Shown here: positions 1 to 64,000 of the stretch, piece by piece | Layout of the letters: each line of letters opens with the position of its first letter | Position numbering within the stretch: position 1 is the stretch's first letter | Source: Odiellus spinosus | Taxonomy: Eukaryota; Arthropoda; Arachnida; Opiliones; Phalangiidae | NCBI GenBank assembly: GCA_963920705.1 | Contig: OY987225.1 | Location: forward strand, 16,819,492 to 16,883,491 | DNA length: 64,000 nucleotides | Direction: 5' to 3' | Translations under genes and position numbers: made by a program | The notes under the pieces: model-generated | Database searches by the model: none | The model's input: the letters and a program-made list of their open reading frames with translations, nothing else | Told to the model about the DNA's origin: nothing

Positions 1-231
1 GCCTTCATGCCACAAGGTATTAGCTTCCTTACATGTAGTACGCATTTATTACCTAAAAATCGAAAAGTACTTTTTCGAAAATAAAAGTGACCCGAACGTG
101 ATTCGAAAACGTAGCCTTTTGATCTGGAACCAAACGCGCTATCATAGCGCTATCGGGCCTTGGGGTGCCTACTCCCTTACATGTAGTTCACATTTATTAC
201 CAAAAAATCGAAAAGTACTTCTTTTTGAAAT

Positions 232-235
232 AAAA
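232..235 (-). terminator. Pol III T4 terminator of the reference tRNA copy
   Basis: On the minus strand the gene is followed by one C and then TTTT. This AAAAG-before-GTGACC arrangement is kept in most units of the array. Some units have TTTAATTTT or ATTATTTT instead, where the first T4 lies a few bases farther on. Confidence 0.65.
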
Positions 236-246
236 GTGACCCGAAC

Positions 247-257
247 GTGATTCGAAC
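247..257 (-). promoter_or_regulatory. Internal B box of the reference tRNA copy
   Basis: The T-arm reads GTTCGAATCAC, matching the GTTCGANNC core of the B box bound by TFIIIC. The common degenerate classes change this element to TTTCGAAT (loss of the closing G:C) or GTACGAAT, which predicts weaker TFIIIC binding. Confidence 0.65.
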
Positions 258-290
258 ACGCAGCCTTTTGATCTGGAGTCAAACGCGCTA

Positions 291-301
291 CCATTGCGCC
301 A
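291..301 (-). promoter_or_regulatory. Internal A box of the reference tRNA copy
   Basis: Gene nucleotides 8-18 read TGGCGCAATGG, close to the RNA polymerase III A-box consensus TRGCNNAGYNGG. Unit classes with TGATAGCGC or changed D-stems weaken this box. Confidence 0.65.
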
Positions 302-533
302 TCGGGCCATGGGGTGTCTGCTCCCTTACATGTAGTTCATATTTATTACTAAAAAATCGAAAAGTACTACTTTTTGAAATAAAAGTCACCCGAACGTGAT
401 TCGAAAACGCAACCTTTTAATCTGGAGTACTACGCGCTACAATAGAGCTTTCATGCCACAAGGTATTAGGTTCCTTACATGCAGTACCCATTTATTACCT
501 AAAAATCGAAAAGTACTTTTTCGAAAATAAAAG

Positions 534-605
534 TGACCCGAACGTGATTCGAACACGCAGCCTTTTGATCTGGAGTCAAACGCGCTACCATTGCGCCATC
601 GGGCC
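534..605 (-). tRNA. tRNA-Trp(CCA) intact copy
   Basis: All stems pair and the anticodon loop is CTCCAGA. T4 lies one base downstream. The 5' flank is the CATGAAGTGTCTGG variant. Confidence 0.75.
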
Positions 606-679
606 ATGAAGTGTCTGGTCCCTTACATGTAGTTCAGATTTATTACTAAAAATCTAAAGCCTTCATTTTGAAATAAAAG

Positions 680-751
680 TCACCCGAACTTGATTCGAAA
701 ACTAAACCTTTCAATCTGGAGTTTAACGAGCTACCACAGAGCCTTCATGCC
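680..751 (-). pseudogene. Example of the most diverged unit class
   Basis: CCA is kept in loop CTCCAGA, but acceptor, T-stem and anticodon stem carry mismatches. It is always preceded on the plus strand by an ATCTAAAGCCTTCATT spacer instead of the usual GTAC palindrome. That makes it a handy marker, recurring about every 1-2 kb, for tracing higher-order blocks. Confidence 0.6.
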
Positions 752-976
752 ACAAGGTATTAGCTTCGTTACATGTAGTACGCATTTATTACCTAAAAAT
801 CGAAAAGTACTTTTTCGAAAATAAAAGTGACCCGAACGTGATTCGAAAACGTAGCCTTTTGATCTGGAACCAAACGCCCTATCATAGCGCTATCGGGCCA
901 TGGGGTGCCTACTGCCTTACATGTAGTTCACATTTATTACCAAAAAATCGAAAAGTACTACTTTTTGAAATAAAAG

Positions 977-1048
977 TGACCCGAACGTGATTCGAACACG
1001 CAGCCTTTTGATCTGGAGTCAAACGCGCTACCATTGCGCCATCGGGCC
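977..1048 (-). tRNA. tRNA-Trp(CCA) intact copy
   Basis: Complete cloverleaf with T4 after one base. It is followed by a unit differing only in the T-loop (TACGAAT), so intact and near-intact copies alternate here. Confidence 0.75.
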
Positions 1049-1127
1049 ATGGGGTGTCATCTACCTTACATGTAGTTCATATTTATTACTAAAAAATCGA
1101 AAAGTACTACTTTTTCGAAAATAAAAG

Positions 1128-1199
1128 TGACCCGAACGTGATTCGTACACGCAGCCTTTTGATCTGGAGTCAAACGCGCTACCATTGCGCCATCGGGCC
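1128..1199 (-). pseudogene. Example of the TACGAAT T-loop class
   Basis: All stems and the CCA anticodon are intact; the only change is T to A in the T-loop (TTCGAAT to TACGAAT). This alters the invariant T54-T55 of the T-arm and the B box, so both folding and transcription should suffer. One of the commonest classes, seen for example near 1740, 3530, 10080 and 16610. Confidence 0.6.
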
Positions 1200-1276
1200 A
1201 TGAGGTGTCTGGTCCCTTACATGTAGTTCAGATTTATAACTAAAAAAACGAAAAGTACTAATTTTTGAAATAAAAG

Positions 1277-1348
1277 TCACCCGAACGTGATTCGAAAACG
1301 CAACCTTTTAATACGGAGTACAACGCGCTACCATTGCGCCATCATGCC
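1277..1348 (-). pseudogene. Example of the CCG-anticodon degenerate class
   Basis: The loop reads CTCCGTA, which would give anticodon CCG. The anticodon stem has two mismatches, the T-stem lacks its closing G:C, and the acceptor GGCATGA no longer pairs at 1 and 4. A related class has CTCCGGA. No tRNA function is expected; the class makes up a large part of the array. Confidence 0.6.
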
Positions 1349-2172
1349 ACAAAGTATTAGCTTCCTTACATGTAGTACGCATTTATTACCTAAAAATCGA
1401 AAAGTACTTTTTCGAAAATAAAAGTGACCCGAACGTGATTCGAAAACGTAGCCTTTTGATCTAGAACTAAACGCGCTATCATAGCGCTATCGGGCCATGG
1501 GGTGCCTACTGCCTTACATGTAGTTCACATTTATTACCAAAAAATCGAAAAGTACTACTTTTTGAAATAAAAGTGACCCGAACGTGATTCGAACACGCAG
1601 CCTTTTGATCTGGAGTCAAACGCGCTACCATTGTGCCATCGGGCCATGGGGTGTCAGCTACCTTACATGTAGTTCATATTTATTACTAAAAAATCGAAAA
1701 GTACTACTTTTTCGAAAATAAAAGTGACCCGAACGTGATTCGTACACGCAGCCTTTTGATCTGGAGTCAAACGCGCTACCATTGCGCCATCAGGCCATGG
1801 GGTGTCTGCTCCCTTACATGTAGTTCAGATTTATAACTAAAAAAACGAAAAGTACTAATTTTTGAAATAAAAGTCACCCGAACGTGATTCGAAAACGCAA
1901 CCTTTTAATACGGAGTACTACGCGCTACAATAGAGCTTTCATGCCACAAGGTATAAGGTTCCTTACATGCAGTACGCATTTATTACCCAAAAATTGAAAA
2001 GTACTTTTTCGAAAATAAAAGTGACCCGAACGTGATTCGAACACGCAGCCTTTTGACCTGGAGTCAAACGCGCTACCATTGCGCCATCGGGCCATGGGGT
2101 GTCTGCTCCCTTACATGTAGTTCACATTTATTACTAAAAAATCGAAAAGTAATACTTTTTCGAAAATAAAAG

Positions 2173-2244
2173 TGACCCGAACGTGATTCGAACACGCAGC
2201 CTTTTGATCTGGAGTCAAACGCGCTACCATTGCGCCATCGGGCC
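2173..2244 (-). tRNA. tRNA-Trp(CCA) intact copy
   Basis: Complete cloverleaf; 5' flank CATGAGGTGTCTGC. The unit to its left has GACCTGG, which changes only the last anticodon-loop base. Confidence 0.75.
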
Positions 2245-2616
2245 ATGAGGTGTCTGCTCCCTTACATGTAGTTCAGATTTATTACTAAAAAATCTAAAGC
2301 CTTCATTTTGAAATAAAAGTCACCCGAACTCGATTCGAAAACTAAACCTTTCAATCTGGAGTTTAACGAGCTACCATAGAGCCTTCATGCCACAAGGTAT
2401 TAGCTTCCTTACATGTAGTACGCATTTATTACCTAAAAATCGAAAAGTACTTTTTCGAAAATAAAAGTGACCCGAACGTGATTCGAAAACGTAGCCTTTT
2501 GATCTGGAACCAAACGCGCTATCATAGCGCTATCGGGCCTTGGGGTGCCTACTCCCTTACATGTAGTTCACATTTATTACCAAAAAATCGAAAAGTACTT
2601 CTTTTTGAAATAAAAG

Positions 2617-2688
2617 TGACCCGAACGTGATTCGAACACGCAGCCTTTTGATCTGGAGTCAAACGCGCTACCATTGCGCCATCGGGCC
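2617..2688 (-). tRNA. tRNA-Trp(CCA) intact copy
   Basis: Complete cloverleaf with T4. The downstream spacer carries the GTACTTCTTTTTG variant, shared with the copies at 237, 3214 and 6194. Confidence 0.75.
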
Positions 2689-3213
2689 ATGGGGTGTCTG
2701 CTCCCTTACATGTAGTTCACATTTATTACTAAAAAATCGAAAAGTACTACTTTTTCGAAAATAAAAGTGACCCGAACGTGATTCGTACACGCAGCCTTTT
2801 GATCTGGAGTCAAACGCGCTACCATTGCGCCATCAGGCCATGGGGTGTCTGCTCCCTTACATGTAGTTCAGATTTATAACTAAAAAAACGAAAAGTACTA
2901 ATTTTTGAAATAAAAGTCACCCGAACGTGATTCGACAACGCAACCTTTTAATACGGAGTACAACGCGCTACCATTGCGCCATCATGCCACAAAGTATTAG
3001 CTTCCTTACATGTAGTACGCATTTATTACCTAAAAATCGAAAAGTACTTTTTCGAAAATAAAAGTGACCCGAACGTGATTCGAAAACGTAGCCTTTTGAT
3101 CTGGAACCAAACGCGCTATCATAGCGCTATCGGGCCTTGGGGTGCCTACTCCCTTACATGTAGTTCACATTTATTACCAAAAAATCGAAAAGTACTTCTT
3201 TTTGAAATAAAAG

Positions 3214-3285
3214 TGACCCGAACGTGATTCGAACACGCAGCCTTTTGATCTGGAGTCAAACGCGCTACCATTGCGCCATCGGGCC
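3214..3285 (-). tRNA. tRNA-Trp(CCA) intact copy
   Basis: Complete cloverleaf with T4. Twin of the copy at 6194 through the 2980-bp duplication. Adjacent to another intact copy at 3365. Confidence 0.75.
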
Positions 3286-3364
3286 ATGGGGTGTCTGCTC
3301 CCTTACATGTAGTTTACATTTATTACTAAAAAATCGAAAAGTACTACTTTTTCGAAAATAAAAG

Positions 3365-3436
3365 TGACCCGAACGTGATTCGAACACGCAGCCTTTTGAT
3401 CTGGAGTCAAACGCGCTACCATTGCGCCATCGGGCC
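3365..3436 (-). tRNA. tRNA-Trp(CCA) intact copy
   Basis: Complete cloverleaf with T4, 151 bp from the previous intact copy. Twin at 6345. Confidence 0.75.
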
Positions 3437-4109
3437 ATGGGGTGTCAGCTACCTTACATGTAGTTCATATTTATTACTAAAAAATCGAAAAGTACTACTT
3501 TTTCGAAAATAAAAGTGACCCGAACGTGATTCGTACACGCAGCCTTTTGATCTGGAGTCAAACGCGCTACCATTGCGCGATTAGGCCATGGGGTGTCTGC
3601 TCCCTTACATGTAGTTCAGATTTATAACTAAAAAAACGAAAAGTACTAATTTTTGAAATAAAAGTCACCCGAACGTGATTCGAAAACGCAACCTTTTAAT
3701 ACGGAGTACAACGCACTACCATTGCGCCATCATGCCACAAAGTATTAGCTTCCTTACATGTAGTACGCATTTATTACCTAAAAATCGAAAAGTACTTTTT
3801 CGAAAATAAAAGTGACCCGTACGTGATTCGAAAACGTAGCCTTTTGATCTGGAGCCAACCGCGCTATCATAGCGCCATCAGGCCATGGGGTGCCTACTCT
3901 CTTACATGTAGTTCACATTTATTACCAAAAAATCGAAAAGTACTACTTTTTGAAATAAAAGTCACCCGAACGTGATTCGAAAACGCAACCTTTTAATCTG
4001 GAGTACTACGCGCTACAATAGAGCTTTCATGCCACAAGGTATTAGGTTCCTTACATGCAGTACCCATTTATTACCTAAAAATCGAAAAGTACTTTTTCGA
4101 AAATAAAAG

Positions 4110-4181
4110 TGACCCGAACGTGATTCGAACACGCAGCCTTTTGATCTGGAGTCAAACGCGCTACCATTGCGCCATCGGGCC
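4110..4181 (-). tRNA. tRNA-Trp(CCA) intact copy
   Basis: Complete cloverleaf with T4. Its twin near 7090 carries ACACAG, which turns T-stem pair 50:64 into a wobble, a duplicate pair in the process of diverging. Confidence 0.75.
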
Positions 4182-4260
4182 ATGGGGTGTCTGCTCCCTT
4201 ACATGTAGTTCACATTTATTACTAAAAAATCGAAAAGTACTACTTTTTCGAAAATTAAAG

Positions 4261-4332
4261 TGACCCGAACGTGATTCGAACACGCAGCCTTTTGATCTGG
4301 AGTCAAACGCGCTACCATTGCGCCATCGGGCC
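4261..4332 (-). tRNA. tRNA-Trp(CCA) intact copy, altered terminator
   Basis: Complete cloverleaf, but the 3' flank reads CTTTAATTTT, so the immediate T-run is only three long and T4 comes after two more bases. Same flank in its twin at 7241. Confidence 0.72.
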
Positions 4333-4704
4333 ATGAGGTGTCTGGTCCCTTACATGTAGTTCAGATTTATTACTAAAAATCTAAAGCCTTCATTTTTGAA
4401 ATAAAAGTCACCAGAACTTGATTCGAAAACTAAACCTTTCAATCTGGAGTTTAACGAGCTACCATAGAGCCTTCATGCCACAAGGTATTAGCTTCCTTAC
4501 ATGTAGTACGCATTTATTACCTAAAAATCGAAAAGTACTTTTTCGAAAATAAAAGTGACCCGAACGTGATTCGAAAACGTAGCCTTTTGATCTGGAACCA
4601 AACGCCCTATCATAGCGCTATCGGGCCATGGGGTGCCTACTGCCTTACATGTAGTTCACATTTATTACCAAAAAATCGAAAAGTACTACTTTTTGAAATA
4701 AAAG

Positions 4705-4776
4705 TGACCCGAACGTGATTCGAACACGCAGCCTTTTGATCTGAAGTCAAACGCGCTACCATTGCGCCATCGGGCC
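4705..4776 (-). tRNA. tRNA-Trp-like with UCA anticodon (UGA-reading)
   Basis: Identical to the intact Trp copies except that the anticodon loop reads CTTCAGA, giving anticodon UCA. UCA pairs with UGA, so an active product could act as an opal suppressor. All stems, boxes and T4 are intact. The change is C34 to T. It could equally be a neutral satellite variant. Twin at 7685. Confidence 0.7.
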
Positions 4777-5449
4777 ATGGGGAGTCAGCTACCTTACATG
4801 TAGTTCATATTTATTACTAAAAAATCGAAAAGTACTATTTTTCGAAAATAAAAGTGACCCGAACGTGATTCGTACACGCAGCCTTTTGATCTGGAGTCAA
4901 ACACGCTACCATTGCGCCATCAGGCCATGGGGTGTCTGCTCCCTTACATGTAGTTCAGATTTATAACTAAAAAAACGAAAAGTACTAATTTTTGAAATAA
5001 AAGTCACCCGAACGTGATTCGAAAACGCAACCCTTTAATACGGAGTACAACGCACTACCATTGCGACATCATGCCATAAAGTATTAGCTTCCATACATGT
5101 AGTACGCATTTATTACCTAAAAATCGAAAAGTACTTTTTCGAAAATAAAAGTGACCCGTACGTGATTCGAAAACGTAGCCTTTTAATCTGGAGCCAACCG
5201 CGCTATCATAGCGCCATCGGGCCATGGGGTGCCTACTCTCTTACATGTAGTTCACATTTATTACCAAAAAATCGAAAAGTACTACTTTTTCGAAAATAAT
5301 GTGACCCGAACGTGATTCGAACACGCAGCCTTTTGATCTGGAGTCAAACGAGCTACCATAGAGCCTTCATGCCACAAGGTATTAGCTTCCTTACATGTAG
5401 TACGCATTTATTACCTAAAAATCGAAAAGTACTTTTTCGAAAATAAAAG

Positions 5450-5521
5450 TGACCCGAACGTGATTCGAAAACGTAGCCTTTTGATCTGGAACCAAACGCG
5501 CTATCATAGCGCTATCGGGCC
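5450..5521 (-). pseudogene. Example of the TTCCAGA-loop class
   Basis: Acceptor, D-stem and anticodon stem pair, with loop TTCCAGA and CCA kept, but the D-loop is TATGATA (no GG) and T-stem pair 53:61 is T:C. The invariant G53:C61 and G18-G19 are therefore lost. Confidence 0.6.
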
Positions 5522-6193
5522 ATGGGGTGCCTACTCCCTTACATGTAGTTCACATTTATTACCAAAAAATCGAAAAGTACTACTTTTTGAAATAAAAGTG
5601 ACCCGAACGTGATTCGAACACGCAGCCTTTTGATCTGGAGTCATACGCGCTACCATTGCGCCAACGGGCCATGGGGTGTCAGCTACCTTACATGTAGTTC
5701 ATATTTATTACTAAAAAATCGAAAAGTACTACTTTTTCGAAAATAAAAGTGACCCGAACGTGATTCGTACACGCAGCCTTTTGATCTGGAGTCAAACGCG
5801 CTACCATTGCGCCATCAGGCCATGGGGTGTCTGCTCCCTTACATGTAGTTCAGATTTATTACTAAAAAATCTAAAGCCTTCATTTTGAAATAAAAGTCAC
5901 CCGAACTCGATTCGAAAACTAAACCTTTCAATCTGGAGTTTAACGAGCTACCATAGAGCCTTCATGCCACAAGGTATTAGCTTCCTTACATGTAGTACGC
6001 ATTTATTACCTAAAAATCGAAAAGTACTTTTTCGAAAATAAAAGTGACCCGAACGTGATTCGAAAACGTAGCCTTTTGATCTGGAACCAAACGCGCTATC
6101 ATAGCGCTATCGGGCCTTGGGGTGCCTACTCCCTTACATGTAGTTCACATTTATTACCAAAAAATCGAAAAGTACTTCTTTTTGAAATAAAAG

Positions 6194-6265
6194 TGACCCG
6201 AACGTGATTCGAACACGCAGCCTTTTGATCTGGAGTCAAACGCGCTACCATTGCGCCATCGGGCC
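6194..6265 (-). tRNA. tRNA-Trp(CCA) intact copy
   Basis: Complete cloverleaf with T4; 2980-bp twin of the copy at 3214. Confidence 0.75.
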
Positions 6266-6344
6266 ATGGGGTGTCTGCTCCCTTACATGTAGTTTACATT
6301 TATTACTAAAAAATCGAAAAGTACTACTTTTTCGAAAATAAAAG

Positions 6345-6416
6345 TGACCCGAACGTGATTCGAACACGCAGCCTTTTGATCTGGAGTCAAACGCGCTACC
6401 ATTGCGCCATCGGGCC
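6345..6416 (-). tRNA. tRNA-Trp(CCA) intact copy
   Basis: Complete cloverleaf with T4; 2980-bp twin of the copy at 3365. Confidence 0.75.
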
Positions 6417-7240
6417 ATGGGGTGTCAGCTACCTTACATGTAGTTCATATTTATTACTAAAAAATCGAAAAGTACTACTTTTTCGAAAATAAAAGTGACC
6501 CGAACGTGATTCGTACACGCAGCCTTTTGATCTGGAGTCAAACGCGCTACCATTGCGCGATTAGGCCATGGGGTGTCTGCTCCCTTACATGTAGTTCAGA
6601 TTTATAACTAAAAAAACGAAAAGTACTAATTTTTGAAATAAAAGTCACCCGAACGTGATTCGAAAACGCAACCTTTTAATACGGAGTACAACGCACTACC
6701 ATTGCGCCATCATGCCACAAAGTATTAGCTTCCTTACATGTAGTACGCATTTATTACCTAAAAATCGAAAAGTACTTTTTCGAAAATAAAAGTGACCCGT
6801 ACGTGATTCGAAAACGTAGCCTTTTGATCTGGAGCCAACCGCGCTATCATAGCGCCATCAGGCCATAGGGTGCCTACTCTCTTACATGTAGTTCACATTT
6901 ATTACCAAAAAATCGAAAAGTACTACTTTTTGAAATAAAAGTCACCCGAACGTGATTCGAAAACGCAACCTTTTAATCTGGAGTACTACGCGCTACAATA
7001 GAGCTTTCATGCCACAAGGTATTAGGTTCCTTACATGCAGTACCCATTTATTACCTAAAAATCGAAAAGTACTTTTTCGAAAATAAAAGTGACCCGAACG
7101 TGATTCGAACACACAGCCTTTTGATCTGGAGTCAAACGCGCTACCATTGCGCCATCGGGCCATGGGGTGTCTGCTCCCTTACATGTAGTTCACATTTATT
7201 ACTAAAAAATCGAAAAGTACTACTTTTTCGAAAATTAAAG

Positions 7241-7312
7241 TGACCCGAACGTGATTCGAACACGCAGCCTTTTGATCTGGAGTCAAACGCGCTACCATTG
7301 CGCCATCGGGCC
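7241..7312 (-). tRNA. tRNA-Trp(CCA) intact copy, altered terminator
   Basis: Complete cloverleaf with the CTTTAATTTT 3' flank; twin of the copy at 4261. Confidence 0.72.
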
Positions 7313-7684
7313 ATGAGGTGTCTGGTCCCTTACATGTAGTTCAGATTTATTACTAAAAATCTAAAGCCTTCATTTTTGAAATAAAAGTCACCAGAACTTG
7401 ATTCGAAAACTAAACCTTTCAATCTGGAGTTTAACGAGCTACCATAGAGCCTTCATGCCACAAGGTATTAGCTTCCTTACATGTAGTACGCATTTATTAC
7501 CTAAAAATCGAAAAGTACTTTTTCGAAAATAAAAGTGACCCGAACGTGATTCGAAAACGTAGCCTTTTGATCTGGAACCAAACGCCCTATCATAGCGCTA
7601 TCGGGCCATGGGGTGCCTACTGCCTTACATGTAGTTCACATTTATTACCAAAAAATCGAAAAGTACAACTTTTTGAAATAAAAG

Positions 7685-7756
7685 TGACCCGAACGTGATT
7701 CGAACACGCAGCCTTTTGATCTGAAGTCAAACGCGCTACCATTGCGCCATCGGGCC
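7685..7756 (-). tRNA. tRNA-Trp-like with UCA anticodon (UGA-reading)
   Basis: Anticodon loop CTTCAGA in an otherwise intact cloverleaf with T4. It arose by block duplication from, or with, the copy at 4705 rather than by a new mutation. Confidence 0.7.
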
Positions 7757-8281
7757 ATGGGGAGTCAGCTACCTTACATGTAGTTCATATTTATTACTAA
7801 AAAATCGAAAAGTACTATTTTTCGAAAATAAAAGTGACCCGAACGTGATTCGTACACGCAGCCTTTTGATCTGGAGTCAAACACGCTACCATTGCGCCAT
7901 CAGGCCATGGGGTGTCTGCTCCCTTACATGTAGTTCAGATTTATAACTAAAAAAACGAAAAGTACTAATTTTTGAAATAAAAGTCACCCGAACGTGATTC
8001 GAAAACGCAACCCTTTAATACGGAGTACAACGCACTACCATTGCGACATCATGCCATAAAGTATTAGCTTCCATACATGTAGTACGCATTTATTACCTAA
8101 AAATCGAAAAGTACTTTTTCGAAAATAAAAGTGACCCGTACGTGATTCGAAAACGTAGCCTTTTAATCTGGAGCCAACCGCGCTATCATAGCGCCATCGG
8201 GCCATGGGGTGCCTACTCTCTTACATGTAGTTCACATTTATTACCAAAAAATCGAAAAGTACTACTTTTTCGAAAATAATG

Positions 8282-8353
8282 TGACCCGAACGTGATTCGA
8301 ACACGCAGCCTTTTGATCTGGAGTCAAACGCGCTACCATTGCGCCATCGGGCC
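8282..8353 (-). tRNA. tRNA-Trp(CCA) intact copy, weak terminator
   Basis: Complete cloverleaf. The 3' flank is CATTATTTT, so the immediate T4 is lost and the next lies six bases on. The same flank occurs at 57850 and 58892, linking these units. Confidence 0.72.
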
Positions 8354-9469
8354 ATGGGTGTCTTCTCCCTTACATGTAGTTCAGATTTATTACTAAAAAA
8401 TCTAAAGCCTTCATTTTGAAATAAAAGTCACCCGAACTTGATTCGAAAACGCAACCTTTCAATCTGGAGTTTAACGAGCTACCATAGAGCCTTCATGCCA
8501 CAAGGTATTAGCTTCCTTACATGTAGTACGCATTTATTACCTAAAAATCGAAAAGTACTTTTTCGAAAATAAAAGTGACCCGAACGTGATTCGAAAACGT
8601 AGCCTTTTGATCTGGAACCAAACGCGCTATCATAGCGCTATCGGGCCATGGGGTGCCTACTCCCTTACATGTAGTTCACATTTATTACCAAAAAATCGAA
8701 AAGTACTACTTTTTGAAATAAAAGTGACCCGAACGTGATTCGAACACGCAGCCTTTTGATCTGGAGTCATACGCGCTACCATTGCGCCAACGGGCCATGG
8801 GGTGTCAGCTACCTTACATGTAGTTCATATTTATTACTAAAAAATCGAAAAGTACTACTTTTTCGAAAATAAAAGTGACCCGAACGTGATTCGTACACGC
8901 AGCCTTTTGATCTGGAGTCAAACGCGCTACCATTGCGCCATCAGGCCATGGGGTGTCTGCTCCCTTACATGTAGTTCAGATTTATAACTAAAAAAACGAA
9001 AAGTACTAATTTTTGAAATAAAAGTCATCCGAACGTGATTCGAAAACGCAACCTTTTAATACGGAGTACAACGCACTACCATTGCGCCATCATGCCACAA
9101 AGTATTAGCTTCCTTACATGTAGTACGCATTTATTACCTAAAAATCGAAAAGTACTTTTTCGAAAATAAAAGTGACCCGAACGTGATTCGAAAACGTAGC
9201 CTTTTGATCTGGAGCCAAACGCGCTATCATAGCGCCATCGGGCCATGGGGTGCCTACTCTCTTACATGTAGTTCACATTTATTACCAAAAAATCGAAAAG
9301 TACTACTTTTTGAAATAAAAGTCACCCGAACGTGATTCGAAAACGCAACCTTTTAATCTGGAGTACTACGCGCTACAATAGAGCTTTCATGCCACAAGGT
9401 ATTAGGTTCCTTACATGCAGTTCCCATTTATTACCTAAAAATCGAAAAGTACTTTTTCGAAAATAAAAG

Positions 9470-9541
9470 TGACCCGAACGTGATTCGAACACGCAGCCTT
9501 TTGATCTGGAGTCAAACGCGCTACCATTGCGCCATCGGGCC
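9470..9541 (-). tRNA. tRNA-Trp(CCA) intact copy
   Basis: Complete cloverleaf with T4 and 5' flank CATGTGGTGTC. Copies at 15253 and 25239 are intact; the fourth, near 60081, has CCATTGGG and a broken acceptor pair. Confidence 0.75.
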
Positions 9542-9620
9542 ATGTGGTGTCTGCTCCCTTACATGTAGTTCACATTTATTACTAAAAAATCGAAAAGTAC
9601 TACTTTTTCGAAAATTAAAG

Positions 9621-9692
9621 TGACCCGAACGTGATTCGAACACGCAGCCTTTTGATCTGGAGTCAAACGCGCTACCATTGCGCCATCGGGCC
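9621..9692 (-). tRNA. tRNA-Trp(CCA) intact copy, altered terminator
   Basis: Complete cloverleaf with CTTTAATTTT flank. Intact copies in all four related blocks (15404, 25390, 60232). Confidence 0.72.
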
Positions 9693-53828: not shown

Positions 53829-54571
53829 GACCCGAACGTGATTCGTACACGCAGCCTTTTGATCTGGAGTCAAACGCGCTACCATTGCGCCATCGGGCCA
53901 TGGGGTGTCAGCTACCTTACATGTAGTTCATATTTATTACTAAAAAATCGAAAAGTACTATTTTTCGAAAATAAAAGTGACCCGAACGTGATTCGTACAC
54001 GCAGCCTTTTCATCTGGAGTCAAACGCGCTACCATTGCGCGATCAGGCCATGGGGTGTCTGCTCCCTTACATGTAGTTCAGATTTATAACTAAAAAAACG
54101 AAAAGTACTAATTTTTGAAATAAAAGTCACCCGAACGTGATTCGAAAACGCAACCCTTTAATACGGAGTACAACGCACTACCATTGCGCCATCATGCCAC
54201 AAAGTATTAGTTTCCTTACATGTAGTACGCATTTATTACCTAAAAATCGAAAAGTACTTTTTCGAAAATAAAAGTGACCCGTACGTGATTCGAAAACGTA
54301 GCCTTTTGATCTGGAGCCAACCGCGCTATCATAGCGCCATCGGGACATGGGGTGCCTACTCTCTTACATGTAGTTCACATTTATTACCAAAAAATCGAAA
54401 AGTACTACTTTTTGAAATAAAAGTCACCCGAACGTGATTCGAAAACGCAACCTTTTAATCTGGAGTACTACGCGCTACAATAGAGCTTTCATGCCACAAG
54501 GTATTAGGTTCCTTACATGCAGTACCCATTTATTACCTAAAAATCGAAAAGTACTTTTTCGAAAATAAAAG

Positions 54572-54643
54572 TGACCCGAACGTGATTCGAACACGCAGCC
54601 TTTTGATCTGGAGTCAAACGCGCTACCATTGCGCCATCGGGCC
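54572..54643 (-). tRNA. tRNA-Trp(CCA) intact copy
   Basis: Complete cloverleaf with T4; paired with the next intact gene as at 50849/51000. Confidence 0.75.
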
Positions 54644-54722
54644 ATGGGGTGTCTGCTCCCTTACATGTAGTTCACATTTATTACTAAAAAATCGAAAAGT
54701 ACTACTTTTTCGAAAATAAAAG

Positions 54723-54794
54723 TGACCCGAACGTGATTCGAACACGCAGCCTTTTGATCTGGAGTCAAACGCGCTACCATTGCGCCATCGGGCC
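54723..54794 (-). tRNA. tRNA-Trp(CCA) intact copy
   Basis: Complete cloverleaf with T4; 5' flank CATGAGGTGTCTGG. Confidence 0.75.
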
Positions 54795-55165
54795 ATGAGG
54801 TGTCTGGTCCCTTACATGTAGTTCAGATTTATTACTAAAAATCTAAAGCCTTCATTTTGAAATAAAAGTCACCCGAACTTGATTCGAAAACTAAACCTTT
54901 CAATCTGGAGTTTAACGAGCTACCACAGAGCCTTCATGCCACAAGGTATTAGCTTCGTTACATGTAGTACGCATTTATTACCTAAAAATCGAAAAGTACT
55001 TTTTCGAAAATAAAAGTGACCCGAACGTGATTCGAAAACGTAGCCTTTTGATCTGGAACCAAACGCCCTATCATAGCGCTATCGGGCCATGGGGTGCCTA
55101 CTGCCTTACATGTAGTTCACATTTATTACCAAAAAATCGAAAAGTACTACTTTTTGAAATAAAAG

Positions 55166-55237
55166 TGACCCGAACGTGATTCGAACACGCAGCCTTTTGA
55201 TCTGGAGTCAAACGCGCTACCATTGCGCCATCGGGCC
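55166..55237 (-). tRNA. tRNA-Trp(CCA) intact copy
   Basis: Complete cloverleaf with T4. The local order of units resembles that around 977-1048. Confidence 0.75.
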
Positions 55238-55762
55238 ATGGGGTGTCAGCTACCTTACATGTAGTTCATATTTATTACTAAAAAATCGAAAAGTACTACT
55301 TTTTCGAAAATAAAAGTGACCCGAACGTGATTCGTACACGCAGCCTTTTGATCTGGAGTCAAACGCGCTACCATTGCGCCATCGGGCCATGAGGTGTCTG
55401 GTCCCTTACATGTAGTTCAGATTTATAACTAAAAAAACGAAAAGTACTAATTTTTGAAATAAAAGTCACCCGAACGTGATTCGAAAACGCAACCTTTTAA
55501 TACGGAGTACAACGCGCTACCATTGCGCCATCATGCCACAAAGTATTAGCTTCCTTACATGTAGTACGCATTTATTACCTAAAAATCGAAAAGTACTTTT
55601 TCGAAAATAAAAGTGACCCGAACGTGATTCGAAAACGTAGCCTTTTGATCTAGAACCAAACGCGCTATCATAGCGCTATCGGGCCATGGGGTGCCTACTG
55701 CCTTACATGTAGTTCACATTTATTACCAAAAAATCGAAAAGTACTACTTTTTGAAATAAAAG

Positions 55763-55834
55763 TGACCCGAACGTGATTCGAACACGCAGCCTTTTGATCT
55801 GGAGTCAAACGCGCTACCATTGCGCCATCGGGCC
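55763..55834 (-). tRNA. tRNA-Trp(CCA) intact copy
   Basis: Complete cloverleaf with T4, 597 bp (four units) from the intact copy at 55166. Confidence 0.75.
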
Positions 55835-56356
55835 ATGGGGTGTCAGCTACCTTACATGTAGTTCATATTTATTACTAAAAAATCGAAAAGTACTACTTTT
55901 TCGAAAATAAAAGTGACCCGAACGTGATTCGTACACGCAGCCTTTTGATCTGGAGTCAAACGCGCTACCCTTGCGCCATCGGGCCATGAGGTGTCTGGTC
56001 CCTTACATGTAGTTGAGATTTATTACTAAAAATCTAAAGCCTTCATTTTGAAATAAAAGTCACCCGAACTTGATTCGAAAACTAAACCTTTCAATCTGGA
56101 GTTTAACGAGCTACCATAGAGCCTTCATGCCACAAGGTATTAGCTTCCTTACATGTAGTACGCATTTATTACCTAAAAATCGAAAAGTACTTTTTCGAAA
56201 ATAAAAGTGACCCGACCGTGATTCGAAAACGTAGCCTTTTGAACTGGAACCAAACGCCCTATCATAGCGCTATCGGGCCATGGGGTGCCTACTGCCTTAC
56301 ATGTAGTTCACATTTATTACCAAAAAATCGAAAAGTACTACTTTTTGAAATAAAAG

Positions 56357-56428
56357 TGACCCGAACGTGATTCGAACACGCAGCCTTTTGATCTGGAGTC
56401 AAACGCGCTACCATTGCGCCATCGGGCC
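56357..56428 (-). tRNA. tRNA-Trp(CCA) intact copy
   Basis: Complete cloverleaf with T4, 594 bp from the copy at 55763; part of a local four-unit periodicity. Confidence 0.75.
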
Positions 56429-57252
56429 ATGGGGTGTCAGCTACCTTACATGTAGTTCATATTTATTACTAAAAAATCGAAAAGTACTACTTTTTCGAAA
56501 ATAAAAGTGACCCGAACGTGATTCGTACACGCAGCCTTTTGATCTGGAGTCAAACGCGCTACCATTGCGCCATCAGGCCATGGGGTGTCTGCTCCCTTAC
56601 ATGTAGTTCAGATTTATAACTAAAAAAACGAAAAGTACTAATTTTTGAAATAAAAGTCACCCGAACGTGATTCGAAAACGCAACCTTTTAATACGGAGTA
56701 CTACGCGCTACAATAGAGCTTTCATGCCACAAGGTATAAGGTTCCTTACATGCAGTACGCATTTATTACCCAAAAATTGAAAAGTACTTTTTCGAAAATA
56801 AAAGTGACCCGAACGTGATTCGAACACGCAGCCTTTTGACCTGGAGTCAAACGCGCTACCATTGCGCCATCAGGCCATGGGGTGTCTGCTCCCTTACATG
56901 TAGTTCAGATTTATAACTAAAAAAACGAAAAGTACTAATTTTTGAAATAAAAGTCACCCGAACGTGATTCGAAAACGCAACCTTTTAATACGGAGTACAA
57001 CGCGCTACCATTGCGCCATCATGCCACAAAGTATTAGCTTCCTTACATGTAGTACGCATTTATTACCTAAAAATCGAAAAGTACTTTTTCGAAAATAAAA
57101 GTGACCCGAACGTGATTCGAAAACGTAGCCTTTTGATCTGGAGCCAAACGCGCTACCATTGCGCCATCGGGCCATGGGGTGTCTGCTCCCTTACATGTAG
57201 TTCACATTTATTACTAAAAAATCGAAAAGTAATACTTTTTCGAAAATAAAAG

Positions 57253-57324
57253 TGACCCGAACGTGATTCGAACACGCAGCCTTTTGATCTGAAGTCAAAC
57301 GCGCTACCATTGCGCCATCGGGCC
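57253..57324 (-). tRNA. tRNA-Trp-like with UCA anticodon (UGA-reading)
   Basis: Loop CTTCAGA, stems and T4 intact. Its downstream spacer is the GTAATACTTTTTCG type, unlike other UCA units, so it may be a recombinant. Confidence 0.7.
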
Positions 57325-57848
57325 ATGGGGTGTCAGCTACCTTACATGTAGTTCATATTTATTATTAAAAAATCGAAAAGTACTATTTTTCGAAAATAAA
57401 AGTGACCCGAACGTGATTCGTACACGCAGCCTTTTGATCTGGAGTCATACACGCTACCATTGCGCCATCAGGCCATGGGGTGTCTGCTCCCTTACATGTA
57501 GTTCAGATTTATAACTAAAAAAACGAAAAGTACTAATTTTTGAAATAAAAGTCACCCGAACGTGATTCGAAAACGCAACCCTTTAATACGGAGTACAACG
57601 CACTACCATTGCGACATCATGCCATAAAGTATTAGCTTCCATACATGTAGTACGCATTTATTACCTAAAAATCGAAAAGTACTTTTTCGAAAATAAAAGT
57701 GACCCGTACGTGATTCGAAAACGTAGCCTTTTAATCTGGAGCCAACCGCGCTATCATAGCGCCATCGGGCCATGGGGTGCCTACTCTCTTACATGTAGTT
57801 CACATTTATTACCAAAAAATCGAAAAGTACTACTTTTTCGAAAATAAT

Positions 57849-58890
57849 GTGACCCGAACGTGATTCGAACACGCAGCCTTTTGATCTGGAGTCAAACGCG
57901 CTACCATTGCGCCATCGGGCCATGGGGTGTCTTCTCCCTTACATGTAGTTCAGATTTATTACTAAAAAATCTAAAGCCTTCATTTTGAAATAAAAGTCAC
58001 CCGAACTTGATTCGAAAACGCAACCTTTCAATCTGGAGTTTAACGAGCTACCATAGAGCCTTCATGCCACAAGGTATTAGCTTCCTTACATGTAGTACGC
58101 ATTTATTACCTAAAAATCGAAAAGTACTTTTTCGAAAATAAAAGTGACCCGAACGTGATTCGAAAACGTAGCCTTTTGATCTGGAACCAAACGCGCTATC
58201 ATAGCGCTATCGGGCCATGGGGTGCCTACTCCCTTACATGTAGTTCACATTTATTACCAAAAAATCGAAAAGTACTACTTTTTGAAATAAAAGTGACCCG
58301 AACGTGATTCGAACACGCAGCCTTTTGATCTGGAGTCATACGCGCTACCATTGCGCCAACGGGCCATGGGGTGTCAGCTACCTTACATGTAGTTCATATT
58401 TATTACTAAAAAATCGAAAAGTACTACTTTTTCGAAAATAAAAGTGACCCGAACGTGATTCGTACACGCAGCCTTTTGATCTGGAGTCAAACGCGCTACC
58501 ATTGCGCCATCAGGCCATGGGGTGTCTGCTCCCTTACATGTAGTTCAGATTTATAACTAAAAAAACGAAAAGTACTAATTTTTGAAATAAAAGTCATCCG
58601 AACGTGATTCGAAAACGCAACCTTTTAATACGGAGTACAACGCACTACCATTGCGCCATCATGCCACAAAGTATTAGCTTCCTTACATGTAGTACGCATT
58701 TATTACCTAAAAATCGAAAAGTACTTTTTCGAAAATAAAAGTGACCCGTACGTGATTCGAAAACGTAGCCTTTTAATCTGGAGCCAACCGCGCTATCATA
58801 GCGCCATCGGGCCATGGGGTGCCTACTCTCTTACATGTAGTTCACATTTATTACCAAAAAATCGAAAAGTACTACTTTTTCGAAAATAAT
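57849..58890. repeat. 1042-bp seven-unit duplication, copy 1
   Basis: Seven units, repeated directly downstream at an offset of 1042 bp. Both copies begin with a GTGACCC unit preceded by AAAATAAT instead of AAAATAAAA, and contain the GGTGTCTTCTCCC and AACGGGCC variants. Confidence 0.8.
57850..57921 (-). tRNA. tRNA-Trp(CCA) intact copy, weak terminator
   Basis: Complete cloverleaf with the CATTATTTT flank; first unit of the 1042-bp duplication. Confidence 0.72.
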
Positions 58891-59932
58891 GTGACCCGAA
58901 CGTGATTCGAACACGCAGCCTTTTGATCTGGAGTCAAACGCGCTACCATTGCGCCATCGGGCCATGGGGTGTCTTCTCCCTTACATGTAGTTCAGATTTA
59001 TTACTAAAAAATCTAAAGCCTTCATTTTGAAATAAAAGTCACCCGAACTTGATTCGAAAACGCAACCTTTCAATCTGGAGTTTAACGAGCTACCATAGAG
59101 CCTTCATGCCACAAGGTATTAGCTTCCTTACATGTAGTACGCATTTATTACCTAAAAATCGAAAAGTACTTTTTCGAAAATAAAAGTGACCCGAACGTGA
59201 TTCGAAAACGTAGCCTTTTGATCTGGAACCAAACGCGCTATCATAGCGCTATCGGGCCATGGGGTGCCTACTCCCTTACTTGTAGTTCACATTTATTACC
59301 AAAAAATCGAAAAGTACTACTTTTTGAAATAAAAGTGACCCGAACGTGATTCGAACACGCAGCCTTTTGATCTGGAGTCATACGCGCTACCATTGCGCCA
59401 ACGGGCCATGGGGTGTCAGCTACCTTACATGTAGTTCATATTTATTACTAAAAAATCGAAAAGTACTACTTTTTCGAAAATAAAAGTGACCCGAACGTGA
59501 TTCGTACACGCAGCCTTTTGATCTGGAGTCAAACGCGCTACCATTGCGCCATCAGGCCATGGGGTGTCTGCTCCCTTACATGTAGTTCAGATTTATAACT
59601 AAAAAAACGAAAAGTACTAATTTTTGAAATAAAAGTCATCCGAACGTGATTCGAAAACGCAACCTTTTAATACGGAGTACAACGCACTACCATTGCGCCA
59701 TCATGCCACAAAGTATTAGCTTCCTTACATGTAGTACGCATTTATTACCTAAAAATCGAAAAGTACTTTTTCGAAAATAAAAGTGACCCGAACGTGATTC
59801 GAAAACGTAGCCTTTTGATCTGGAGCCAAACGCGCTATCATAGCGCCATCGGGCCATGGGGTGCCTACTCTCTTACATGTAGTTCACATTTATTACCAAA
59901 AAATCGAAAAGTACTACTTTTTGAAATAAAAG
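58891..59932. repeat. 1042-bp seven-unit duplication, copy 2
   Basis: Direct copy of the preceding seven units. Near its end (about 59780) it changes from the GTACGTGATT variant to GAACGTGATT and then follows the order of the 8.4-14.2 kb block. Confidence 0.75.
58892..58963 (-). tRNA. tRNA-Trp(CCA) intact copy, weak terminator
   Basis: 1042-bp twin of 57850 with the same flank lacking an immediate T4. Confidence 0.72.
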
Positions 59933-60231
59933 TCACCCGAACGTGATTCGAAAACGCAACCTTTTAATCTGGAGTACTACGCGCTACATTAGAGCTTTCA
60001 TGCCACAAGGTATTAGGTTCCTTACATGCAGTTCCCATTTATTACCTAAAAATCGAAAAGTACTTTTTCGAAAATAAAAGTGACCCGAACGTGATTCGAA
60101 CACGCAGCCTTTTGATCTGGAGTCAAACGCGCTACCATTGCGCCATTGGGCCATGTGGTGTCTGCTCCCTTACATGTAGTTCACATTTATTACTAAAAAA
60201 TCGAAAAGTACTACTTTTTCGAAAATTAAAG

Positions 60232-60303
60232 TGACCCGAACGTGATTCGAACACGCAGCCTTTTGATCTGGAGTCAAACGCGCTACCATTGCGCCATCGG
60301 GCC
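60232..60303 (-). tRNA. tRNA-Trp(CCA) intact copy, altered terminator
   Basis: Fourth copy of the 9621 lineage, unchanged, with CTTTAATTTT flank. Confidence 0.72.
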
Positions 60304-61420
60304 ATGAGGTGTCTGGTCCCTTACATGTAGTTCAGATTTATTACTAAAAATCTAAAGCCTTCATTTTTGAAATAAAAGTCACCCGAACTTGATTCGAAAA
60401 CTAAACCTTTCAATCTGGAGTTTAACGAGCTACCATAGAGCCTTCATGCCACAAGGTATTAGCTTCCTTACATGTAGTACGCATTTATTACCTAAAAATA
60501 GAAAAGTACTTTTTCGAAAATAAAAGTGACCCGAACGTGATTCGATAACGTAGCCTTTTGATCTGGAACCAAACGCCCTATCATAGCGCTATCGGGCCAT
60601 GGGATGCCTACTGCCTTACATGTAGTTCACATTTATTACCAAAAAATTGAAAAGTACTACTTTTTGAAATAAAAGTGACCCGAACGTGATTCGTACACGC
60701 AGCCTTTTGATCTGGAGTCAAACGCGCTACCATTGCGCCATCGGGCCATGGGGTGTCAGCTACCTTACATGTAGTTCATATTTATTACTAAAAAATCGAA
60801 AAGTACTACTTTTTCGAAAATAAAAGTGACCCGAACGTGATTCGTACACGCAGCCTTTTGATCTGGAGTCAAACGCGCTACCATTGCGCCATCAGGCCAT
60901 GGGGTGTCTGCTCCCTTACATGTAGTTCAGATTTAAAACTAAAAAAACGAAAAGTACTAATTTTTGAAATAAAAGTCACCCGAACGTGATTCGAAAACGC
61001 AACCTTTTAATACGGAGTACAACGCGCTACCATTGCGCCATCATGCCACAAAGTATTAGCTTCCTTACATGTAGTACGCATTTATTACCTAAAAATCGAA
61101 AAGTACTTTTTCGAAAATAAAAGTGACCCGAACGTGATTCGAAAACGTAGCCTTTTGATCTGGAGCCAAACGCGCTATCATAGCGCCATCGGGCCATGGA
61201 GTGCCTACTCTCTTACATGTAGTTCACATTTATTACCAAAAAATCGAAAAGTACTACTTTTTGAAATAAAAGTCACCCGAACGTGATTTGAAAAGGCAAC
61301 CTTTTAATCTGGAGTACTACGCGCTACAATAGAGCTTTCATGCCACAAGGTATTAGGTTCCTTACATGCAGTACCCATTTATTACCTAAAAATCGAAAAG
61401 TACTTTTTCGAAAATAAAAG

Positions 61421-61492
61421 TGACCCGAACGTGATTCGAACACGCAGCCTTTTGATCTGGAGTCAAACGCGCTACCATTGCGCCATCGGGCC
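61421..61492 (-). tRNA. tRNA-Trp(CCA) intact copy
   Basis: Counterpart of 26579 in the right array's six-unit expansion; T4 present. Confidence 0.75.
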
Positions 61493-61569
61493 ATGGGGTG
61501 TCTGCTCCCTTACATGTAGTTCACATTTATTACCAAAAAATCGAAAAGTACTACTTTTTGAAATAAAAG

Positions 61570-61641
61570 TGACCCGAACGTGATTCGAACACGCAGCCTT
61601 TTGATCTGGAGTCAAACGCGCTACCATTGCGCCATCGGGCC
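61570..61641 (-). tRNA. tRNA-Trp(CCA) intact copy
   Basis: Counterpart of 26728; complete cloverleaf with T4. Confidence 0.75.
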
Positions 61642-62166
61642 ATGGGGTGTCAGCTACCTTACATGTAGTTCATATTTATTACTAAAAAATCGAAAAGTAC
61701 TACTTTTTCGAAAATAAAAGTGACCCGAACGTGATTCGTACACGCAGCCTTTTGATCTGGAGTCAAACGCGCTACCATTGCGCCATCAGGCCATGGGGTG
61801 TCTGCTCCCTTACATGTAGTTCAGATTTAAAACTAAAAAAACGAAAAGTACTAATTTTTGAAATAAAAGTCACCCGAACGTGATTCGAAAACGCAACCTT
61901 TTAATACGGAGTACAACGCGCTACCATTGCGCCATCATGCCACAAAGTATTAGCTTCCTTACATGTAGTACGCATTTATTACCTAAAAATCGAAAAGTAT
62001 TTTTTCGAAAATAAAAGTGACCCGAACGTGATTCGAAAACGTAGCCTTTTGATCTGGAGCCAAACGCGCTATCATAGCGCTATCGGGCCATGGGGTGCCT
62101 ACTGCCTTACATGTAGTTCACATTTATTACCAAAAAATCGAAAAGTACTACTTTTTGAAATAAAAG

Positions 62167-62238
62167 TGACCCGAACGTGATTCGAACACGCAGCCTTTTG
62201 ATCTGGAGTCAAACGCGCTACCATTGCGCCATCGGGCC
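62167..62238 (-). tRNA. tRNA-Trp(CCA) intact copy
   Basis: Counterpart of 27325; complete cloverleaf with T4. Confidence 0.75.
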
Positions 62239-62760
62239 ATGGGGTGTCAGCTACCTTACATGTAGTTCATATTTATTACTAAAAAATCGAAAAGTACTAC
62301 TTTTTCGAAAATAAAGGTGACCCGAACGTGATTCGTACACGCAGCCTTTTGATCTGGAGTCAAACGCGCTACCATTGCGCCATCGGGCCATGAGGTGTCT
62401 GGTCCCTTACATGTAGTTCAGATTTATTACTAAAAATCTAAAGCCTTCATTTTGAAATAAAAGTCACCCGAACTTGATTCGAAAACTAAACCTTTCAATC
62501 TGGAGTTTAACGAGCTACCATAGAGCCTTCATGCCACAAGGTATTAGCTTCCTTACATGTAGTACGCATTTATTACCTAAAAATCGAAAAGTACTTTTTC
62601 GAAAATAAAAGTGACCCGAACGTGATTCGAAAACGTAGCCTTTTGATCTGGAACCAAACGCCCTATCATAGCGCTATCGGGCCATGGGGTGCCTACTGCC
62701 TTACATGTAGTTCACATTTATTACCAAAAAATCGAAAAGTACTACTTTTTGAAATAAAAG

Positions 62761-62832
62761 TGACCCGAACGTGATTCGAACACGCAGCCTTTTGATCTGA
62801 AGTCAAACGCGCTACCATTGCGCCATCGGGCC
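62761..62832 (-). tRNA. tRNA-Trp-like with UCA anticodon (UGA-reading)
   Basis: Fourth copy of the 11255 UCA lineage; cloverleaf and T4 intact. Confidence 0.7.
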
Positions 62833-64000
62833 ATGGGGTGTCAGCTACCTTACATGTAGTTCATATTTATTACTAAAAAATCGAAAAATACTACTTTTTC
62901 GAAAATAAAAGTGACCCGAACGTGATTCGTACACGCAGCCTTTTGATCTGGAGTCAAACACGCTACCATTGCGCCATCAGGCCATAGGGTGTCTGCTCCC
63001 TTACATGTAGTTCAGATTTATAACTAAAAAAACGAAAAGTACTAATTTTTGAAATAAAAGTCACCCGAACGTGATTCGAAAACGCAACCTTTTAATACGG
63101 AGTACAACGCGCTACCATTGCGCCATCATACCACAAAGTATTAGCTTCCTTAGATGTAGTACGCATTTATTACCTAAAAATCGAAAAGTACTTTTTCGAA
63201 AATAAAAGTGACCCGAACGTGATTCGAAAACGTAGCCTTTTGATCTGGAATCAAACGCGCTACCATAGCGCCATCGAGCCGTGGGGTGCCTACTCTCTTA
63301 CATGTAGTTCACATTTATTACCAAAAAATCGAAAAGTACTACTTTTTGAAATAAAAGTCACCCGAACGTGATTCGAAAACGCAACCTTTTAATCTGGAGT
63401 ACTACGCGCTACAATAGAGCTTTCATGCCACAAGGTATTAGCTTCCTTACATGTAGTACGCATTTATTACCTAAAAATCGAAAAGTACTTTTTCGAAAAT
63501 AAAAGTGACCCGAACGTGATTCGAACACGCAGCCTTTTGATCTGGAGTCAAACGCGCTACCATTGCGAAATCGGGCCATGGGGTGTCCGCTCCCTTACAT
63601 GTAGTTCACATTTATTACTAAAAAAACGAAAAGTACTACTTTTTCGAAAATAAAAGTGACCCGAACGTGATTCGAACACGCAGCCTTTTGATCTGGAGTC
63701 AAACGCGCTACCATTGCGCCAAGGGGCCATGGGGTGTCTGTTCCCTTGCATGTAGTTCACATTTATTACTAAAAAATCGAAAAGTACTACTTTTTCGAAA
63801 ATAAAAGTGACCCGAGCGTGATTCGAACACGCAGCCTCATGATCTGGAGTCAAACGCGCTACTATTGCGCCATCGGGTGTCTGCTCCCTTACATGTAGTT
63901 CAGATTTATAACTAAAAAAACGAAAAGTACTAATTTTTGAAATAAAAGTCACCCGAACGTGATTCGAAAACGCAACCTTTTAATACGGAGTACCACGCGC

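Follow-up and report, generated by a model that had tools for sequence, protein, structure and literature searches.

Long head-to-tail arrays of tRNA genes of many isotypes have been described in Entamoeba (PMC2652664), and tandem arrays of tRNA and other noncoding RNA genes have been published genome-wide for Hydractinia, whose authors also report tRNA arrays in Nematostella (PMC11067881). Here we describe a tRNA-Trp(CCA) tandem array that fills most of a 64,000-bp stretch of an arthropod genome (the window; the plus strand of C1:16,819,492-16,883,491, where C1 is a 35-Mb contig in an assembly of 443 Mb in 286 contigs). In Entamoeba, a unit holds up to five tRNA genes separated by short tandem repeats, and nearly all tRNA genes are organized in this way, whereas here there is mostly one isotype per array, dispersed genes exist too, and the Trp array is heavily decayed. 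Compared with Hydractinia, the spacer of the Trp array is short (~77 bp), most of its units are defective, and U6, which is also transcribed by RNA polymerase III (Pol III), shows no array (5 matches, with 48 of 45,743 candidates scored). Because Entamoeba, which a preliminary description of the window had already named as a precedent, and Hydractinia came first, the locus is a satellite-like variant of a known phenomenon, surprising to a specialist yet not a new category.

The tRNA gene clusters of zebrafish and Nematostella (PMC2888827) resemble this locus in bringing together fifty and more tRNA genes, but neighboring genes there are mostly of different isotypes, in contrast to the single-isotype satellite with a 149-bp unit found here. 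The Lys/Asn array of Drosophila (PMC7884595) likewise places arthropod tRNA genes of two isotypes at one site, but it consists of eight plus eight genes in both orientations over ~45 kb and is not a head-to-tail satellite. The human tRNA variable number tandem repeat at 1q23.3 (PMC4041453) is also a tandem repeat that carries tRNA genes and varies in copy number; it differs in its 7.3-kb unit, present in 9 to 43 copies per allele. Among the matches listed in the literature searched, we recognized no arthropod tRNA satellite, the near candidates being a retrotransposon tRNA dimer in Culex (PMC3286476) and the 16-gene Drosophila array (PMC7884595). As far as that literature goes, the arthropod host, the very short spacers, the satellite-style higher-order repeats and the combination of a decayed majority with a perfect-gene consensus are new.

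Extent and organization of the tRNA-Trp array

Tandem units fill 58,130 of the 64,000 bases of the window, in two parts, each identified with Tandem Repeats Finder (TRF), nhmmer and ARAGORN:

1..43929, minus strand: left part of the tRNA-Trp satellite array, which runs past the left end of the window
49800..64000, minus strand: right part of the tRNA-Trp satellite array, which runs past the right end of the window

The preliminary description had taken nearly the whole window to be tandem Trp units, which holds for these bases, but it had missed the mobile-element DNA that lies between them (43,930-49,799). TRF found periods of 148 to 151 bp, together with the multiples 297, 448 and 451, across almost the entire window, plus a few local rows with periods of 140 and 227. 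A profile of the 72-nt gene gave 392 matches in the window (nhmmer, E ≤ 1), all 392 of them on the minus strand, and the most frequent gene-to-gene spacings were 149 bp (117 cases), 148 bp (106 cases) and 151 bp (72 cases). These figures agree well with the ~390 units of 148 bp, the ~76-bp spacer and the strict head-to-tail order on the minus strand that had been proposed at the outset; reversed units are absent. ARAGORN called 215 tRNAs in the window, the majority of them tRNA-Trp(CCA), and none either in the reversed window or in any of 10 dinucleotide shuffles. With cmscan, 268 matches reached the gathering score, the 150 matches listed all belonged to the tRNA family, and the top Rfam tRNA score was 70.5 bits, where the gathering score is 29. 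Two of the checks suggested with the preliminary description, covariance models set against shuffled sequence and a TRF search for tandem periods, thus both came out in its favor, and the observation of a tRNA-Trp tandem array in the window is confirmed.

In the assembled 270 kb around the window, we found 890 gene copies, once again all on one strand. The whole array comprises 16 blocks totaling 131,412 bp at C1:16,741,336-16,950,927 (~210 kb), with other DNA between the blocks, and it sits near the middle of the contig. Elsewhere in the genome, matches turned up at C1:16,037,602 (about three decayed units) and on contig C7, which carries at least three dispersed tRNA-Trp genes, an identical pair at 10.40 Mb and a single gene at 21.80 Mb; these counts are lower bounds, with 40 of 221 candidates scored. 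The dispersed C7 genes could supply tRNA-Trp independently of the array. Searches beyond this genome gave no match to a 38-base unit pattern in viral contigs and none to a 29-base unit pattern in GTDB genome contigs or viral contigs.

Read in gene orientation, the unit starts with a complete 72-nt tRNA-Trp(CCA) gene, which is followed by the spacer, as in this example:

237..308, minus strand: gene of the consensus (class A) unit, an intact 72-nt tRNA-Trp(CCA) of 69.0 bits (cmscan, nhmmer)
160..236, minus strand: spacer belonging to that gene, in which a TTTT terminator immediately after the gene is followed by an AT-rich inverted repeat and then by the upstream flank of the next gene

The exact sequence of this gene is present in 40 copies in the window and in 83 copies in the whole C1 array. 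We aligned 388 window units, skipping three stretches of wider spacing, and found a T run of at least four within 12 nt of the gene end, the expected site of a Pol III terminator, in 383 of them. Units in the window differ by 17% on average. Average-linkage clustering of the 388 units at 12% difference separated subfamilies A (129 units), B (107 units), C (89 units) and D (22 units) from nine small groups; their order along the array is irregular, yet orders recur. Class A keeps nearly all of its stems (87 of 129 units have no mismatch at all), class B deviates chiefly in the T arm and the D loop, and classes C and D carry means of 6.1 and 8.8 mismatches, respectively, out of 21 stem pairs. 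A-box positions are variable among units. When we counted as fully canonical a unit with all 21 stem pairs and 14 conserved bases, 125 of the 890 units in the whole array qualified, as did 52 of the 388 scored in the window, such that the units are tRNA-like, as first described, but few are canonical tRNA-Trp(CCA) genes. At the anticodon site, CCG was found in 66 of the 388 window units (137 of 890 in the whole array) and TCA replaced CCA in 10; ARAGORN named ten window units SeC. Some of the UGA-reading TCA units, examples of which lie at 4705-4776, 7685-7756 and 11255-11326, share the top Rfam score of 70.5 bits, and such units would be suppressor tRNAs if they were expressed and charged.

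On a larger scale, we found duplicated blocks, which bear out the higher-order structure noted in the preliminary description:

13127..24472, no strand assigned: copy 1 of an 11.4-kb higher-order repeat, 96.3% identical to 24008-35352
24008..35352, no strand assigned: copy 2 of that repeat, 96.3% identical to 13127-24472
58850..64000, no strand assigned: 5.15-kb copy of 24008-29158, with 99.0% identity

The locus therefore has two of the traits of satellite DNA, a long head-to-tail tandem array of one unit and the presence of higher-order repeats with homogenized subfamilies.

Variation within the array and its interpretation

We consider it likely that this is a once-functional tRNA-Trp array that now evolves mainly as satellite DNA, its variation ignoring tRNA structure, with the three dispersed genes as alternative suppliers. 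The satellite behavior of the array today is suggested by the facts that gene and spacer vary almost equally, that stem pairs change at chance level, and that broken unit classes have been amplified. In four parts of the array, divergence was 9.3 to 11.7% in the gene and 10.4 to 15.0% in the spacer. Of 113 derived stem states, 22 kept the pair, where 22.2 (standard deviation, 3.8) were expected from the mutation spectrum of the spacer, and units carried 2.94 stem mismatches each, where 2.99 were expected with independent stem sides. Thus, across the 113 derived stem states, we detected no selection for pairing within the array. The broken classes C and D have been amplified and homogenized like the intact class. 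An array of the functional type, as in Entamoeba or Hydractinia, would be expected to consist of intact tRNA genes whose structure is kept by selection; here we saw no such selection within the array, and 125 of 890 units are canonical, though the consensus is intact. The idea, put forward in the preliminary description, of a tRNA-Trp gene turned into satellite DNA is supported by the head-to-tail order, the higher-order repeats, the amplified defective classes and the near-equal variation of gene and spacer.

The consensus built from all 890 units reads as a fully intact tRNA-Trp gene, and the 83 copies mentioned above are identical to it. It differs from the two genes at C7:10.40 Mb at six positions, all of them in stems; the four affected pairs all still pair, and two of them have changed on both sides. 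In simulations, the chance of six pair-keeping changes was 0.0004 when the changes were placed in stems and 0.022 when they were placed anywhere in the gene. The gene at C7:21.80 Mb differs from the consensus at three positions, all pair-keeping. The bases C4, A7 and U65 (in the numbering of the 72-nt gene) mark the array type as opposed to the C7 type. Because the differences from the dispersed genes all leave the stems paired, the line leading to the master unit was probably under tRNA constraint and functional before or during early amplification.

Several observations weigh against a satellite that has left tRNA constraint behind. In each of the four parts, the gene had diverged slightly less than the spacer, and within class A divergence was 3.1% in the gene and 4.9% in the spacer (in class B the order is reversed, with 6.6% in the gene and 2.7% in the spacer). 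The 8-mers that vary least include those of the terminator and the B-box, a possible sign of residual selection. With regard to the proposed origin, the C7:21.80 gene alone is weak evidence, the chance of its three changes being 0.012 within stems and 0.149 anywhere in the gene, and the direction of descent between the C7 genes and the array is assumed, such that some of the changes may have occurred on the C7 side. The invariance of the terminator and the B-box does not decide between gene and satellite, because spacer stretches such as TAATAAAT are equally invariant when substitutions alone are counted. Among 144 8-mer windows, the terminator ranked first with gaps counted and second, behind TAATAAAT, with substitutions only; since its rank depends on gap counting and TAATAAAT matches it, we did not rely on a special conservation of Pol III elements.

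The history that we envisage would have begun with the duplication of a tRNA-Trp gene with short flanks to one site on C1, where it would have expanded head to tail. The block duplications, higher-order repeats and mosaic subfamilies suggest that it spread by unequal exchange, block duplication and gene conversion, perhaps also through circles. The lineage leading to the present consensus would have evolved under constraint on tRNA structure and was probably transcribed and used. In a later, relaxed phase, variants would have accumulated regardless of folding, with defective unit types amplified beside good ones, and mobile elements would have landed in the array repeatedly. About one unit in seven is still canonical and may be transcribed by Pol III. 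Amplification of this kind has also affected several other isotypes in this genome.

An alternative is that the array is a working gene battery, kept for a high output of tRNA-Trp as ribosomal DNA and the Entamoeba arrays are, with the decayed units as tolerated baggage. We regard this as possible but rather unlikely. The intact consensus over 890 units with its 125 fully canonical members, the terminator in 383 of 388 window units, the founder changes that all keep pairs, and the regular tRNA calls in samples of other arrays (16 Ala, 15 Lys, 18 Lys and 13 Cys, in 2.0 to 2.8 kb each) would all suit such a battery. The lack of pairing selection within the array, the amplification of the defective classes C and D, the CCG in place of CCA in 137 of 890 units, and the existence of three dispersed Trp genes do not. 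A wider proposal, to which we give only a small chance, is that much of the tRNA complement resides on isotype-specific satellites with a unit of near-nucleosome length; a minority of units would supply tRNA, while the array as a whole would use its B-boxes, terminators and conserved spacer blocks to form a chromosome structure loaded with Pol III and TFIIIC, and would also receive mobile elements, which land just behind the genes.

It seems to us improbable that the array is primarily a chromosome structure, a pericentromere or an insulator made of TFIIIC and Pol III sites, with any tRNA function secondary. The low variability of the terminator and B-box region could be read in this way, but it is matched by spacer stretches without a known role in Pol III transcription, and A-box positions are variable. 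The location near the middle of the 35-Mb contig would likewise suit a centromere, a reading weakened by the B-box arrays that also lie at ~8.1, 15.8 and 24.1 Mb of C1, leaving no single central site. That a short real array was inflated by mis-assembly is very unlikely. Large tandem arrays are hard to assemble, and nearly identical blocks and gaps that are copies of one another could arise in this manner, but the duplicated blocks differ by 1 to 4%, the mean difference between window units is 17%, and the 15 gaps that split the array into 16 blocks hold inserts that are in part different.

Short interspersed elements (SINEs) account for many of the tRNA-related repeats of animals, a point in favor of a tRNA-derived SINE turned tandem, but we consider this reading barely credible. 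Although tRNA-dimer SINEs (Twin) occur in Culex (PMC3286476), the consensus here keeps an intact acceptor stem, anticodon and discriminator, the terminator follows directly after the gene with no body and no A-tail, and there is one locus plus, among the matches listed, about three decayed units at C1:16,037,602. One SINE family would share a body, so the spacers of the other isotype arrays, which show no convincing relation, also speak against it. With no dispersed copies bearing a body, a 3′ tail and target duplications, and no body shared among arrays, we rejected a SINE origin, as the preliminary description had done; the strict head-to-tail order and the lack of a detectable relation among the spacers of five isotype arrays uphold its position.

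Mobile-element DNA in the array

The DNA that separates the two parts of the array in the window has the following features:

43930..49799, no strand assigned: 5.87-kb interruption of the array by mobile-element DNA (no unit match at 43982-49797, edges refined; related DNA in other gaps)
43916..44421, no strand assigned: foldback element with nested inverted arms of 126 nt (98%), 58 nt (100%) and 30 nt (93%)
45557..45778, minus strand: open frame with a sub-threshold FLYWCH zinc-finger match (Pfam PF04500, E = 0.0013, 19.3 bits against a cut-off of 23.6)
45937..49799, plus strand: 3.9-kb element with the ends CAAGTTGGG...GGGGAGGT, 98.7% identical to the two-ended insert C1:16794211-16798104

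The first dozen or so bases of the foldback element overlap the edge of the array, and the FLYWCH open frame is a possible transposon remnant. Within the coordinates of the 3.9-kb element, at 47843-48342, lies an element whose 38-bp terminal inverted repeats (87%) surround 13 copies of a 20-bp minisatellite.

Insert ends of the CCTCCCC/GGGGAGG type were found on at least one side in 12 of the 15 array gaps, and some gaps are copies of one another. Block edges fell at unit positions 72 to 99, directly behind the gene, in 25 of 32 cases, against 5.9 expected, an excess whose binomial significance is overstated because the range was picked after the edges had been seen, copied gaps make the edges nonindependent, and a few edges are blurred by alignment. 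Both element ends were recognizable in nine gaps. In seven of the nine, joining the flanks restored a 24-bp array sequence with nothing duplicated, although two of these seven inserts are copies of one event and the terminal base is ambiguous, such that a 1-bp duplication is possible; in the other two it did not. The restored 24-bp sequences occur 12 to 363 times in the 270 kb (with up to one mismatch). Elements without a longer target duplication thus entered preexisting units, usually at the A/T run that follows the gene. A related insert in a tRNA-Thr array to the left of the Trp array lies, as read by eye, in a T run inside a decayed gene and not behind one, so the elements may favor A/T runs rather than tRNA genes themselves.

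Helentron-like elements are characterized by the lack of a target duplication, insertion between two T residues and tandem repeats inside the element. The A/T-run sites without duplication would fit this pattern, though they are equally compatible with a 1-bp duplication, and the inserts are possibly Helentron-like. We could tie no transposase or reverse transcriptase to the inserts; a Rep/helicase protein was not searched for. Dada transposons (PMC3706591) are comparable in that they enter multicopy tRNA genes or their spacers, and Dewa is a retrotransposon of the tRNA-Leu spacer in zebrafish (PMC3706591), but the inserts here lie mainly just behind the gene and lack the 6- to 7-bp target duplication. 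We rejected Dada as the source of the interruptions, as seven of the nine two-ended inserts restore the array without that duplication.

Other tRNA arrays and the meaning of the Trp array

Besides Trp, this genome has Thr, Ala, Cys and, twice, Lys genes in isotype-specific arrays. The Thr array, to the left of the Trp array, has AGT, CGT and TGT genes in an ~640-bp repeat. We looked for further clusters with a B-box pattern and with the Rfam tRNA family, for which 63 of 60,283 candidates were scored:

C1:16.494-16.497, 16.650-16.681 (mostly inverted), 16.701-16.712 and 16.734-16.741 Mb: tRNA-Thr stretches (the stretch at 16.681-16.701 Mb is left out)
C17:8.32 Mb: Ala array, 16 genes in 2.6 kb, spacing mostly 159 bp
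C4:15.33 Mb: Lys array, 15 genes in 2.4 kb, spacing mostly 148 bp
C5:9.53 Mb: Lys array, 18 genes in 2.8 kb, spacing 149 bp
C16:6.18 Mb: Cys array, 13 genes in 2.0 kb, spacing about 154 bp
C1:8.12-8.28, C1:24.06, C2:0.70, C2:10.10 and C2:23.55 Mb: further B-box arrays from the pattern search, among the matches listed

The Thr stretch that adjoins the Trp array (C1:16,701,080-16,741,135) also contains decayed gene-like stretches. The sampled stretches of the two Lys arrays, the Cys array and the Ala array look more intact than the Trp array.

With the Trp array excluded, three B-boxes spaced 145 to 170 bp apart occurred 3,313 times in the genome, against 115 times for the reversed pattern, a figure that overstates the number of units because B-boxes alike on both strands (GGTTCGAACC) were counted twice. 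At a spacing of 175 to 205 bp, there were 231 occurrences, against 113 for the reversed pattern, and 35 of the 100 matches listed look like two minisatellites. Among the matches listed, the B-box arrays at C1:15.78-15.98 Mb are scattered, decayed looking and on both strands. Reading by eye, we take the genes at C1:8.1, C1:24.1, C2:10.1 and C2:23.55 Mb to be Ser-, Leu-, Leu- and Gly-like, respectively; Leu- and Ser-like arrays probably exist as well.

Units of the Trp, Lys, Ala and Cys arrays are usually between 148 and 160 bp long, although their spacers have no convincing relation. The ~150-bp length is a tendency and not a rule, since the Leu-like array has a unit of 196 bp, two Cys genes on C3 are 171 bp apart, and the Thr repeat measures ~640 bp. 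In ten pairwise comparisons, we found no convincing relation among the spacers of five isotype arrays; the best pair, Trp and the Lys array on C5, had a score of 19, which was reached by 11 of 300 shuffles.

Some further observations concern the host genome. On the mitochondrial contig C286, read with the invertebrate code by eye and with ARAGORN, the order is M-ND2-W-C-Y-COX1-COX2-K-D-ATP6, and COX1 adjoins COX2 without a tRNA-Leu between them. Such an order matches the arthropod ground pattern and lacks the tRNA-Leu shift seen in insects and crustaceans; it supports an arthropod host, probably a chelicerate or a myriapod. The odorant-receptor family 7tm_6 gave one match from six candidates. 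Several COX1-containing stretches with stops at ~1.1 to 4.4 Mb of C17 are likely a cluster of nuclear mitochondrial copies, and an inverted pair of (AGGTC)n and (GACCT)n repeats, TCAGG/TTAGG-like, lies near the contig end at C1:76-415.

Few known genes are as conserved as those for tRNAs, and here the passage of one such gene from a constrained gene to a drifting satellite is visible within a single genome; the dispersed genes serve as a control, and the other isotype arrays, seemingly better preserved in the stretches sampled, allow comparison. Whether tRNA genes are amplified for supply, for chromosome structure or for nothing thereby becomes a testable question. Satellite arrays of this kind can also inflate predictor-based counts of tRNA genes a hundredfold or more for one isotype.

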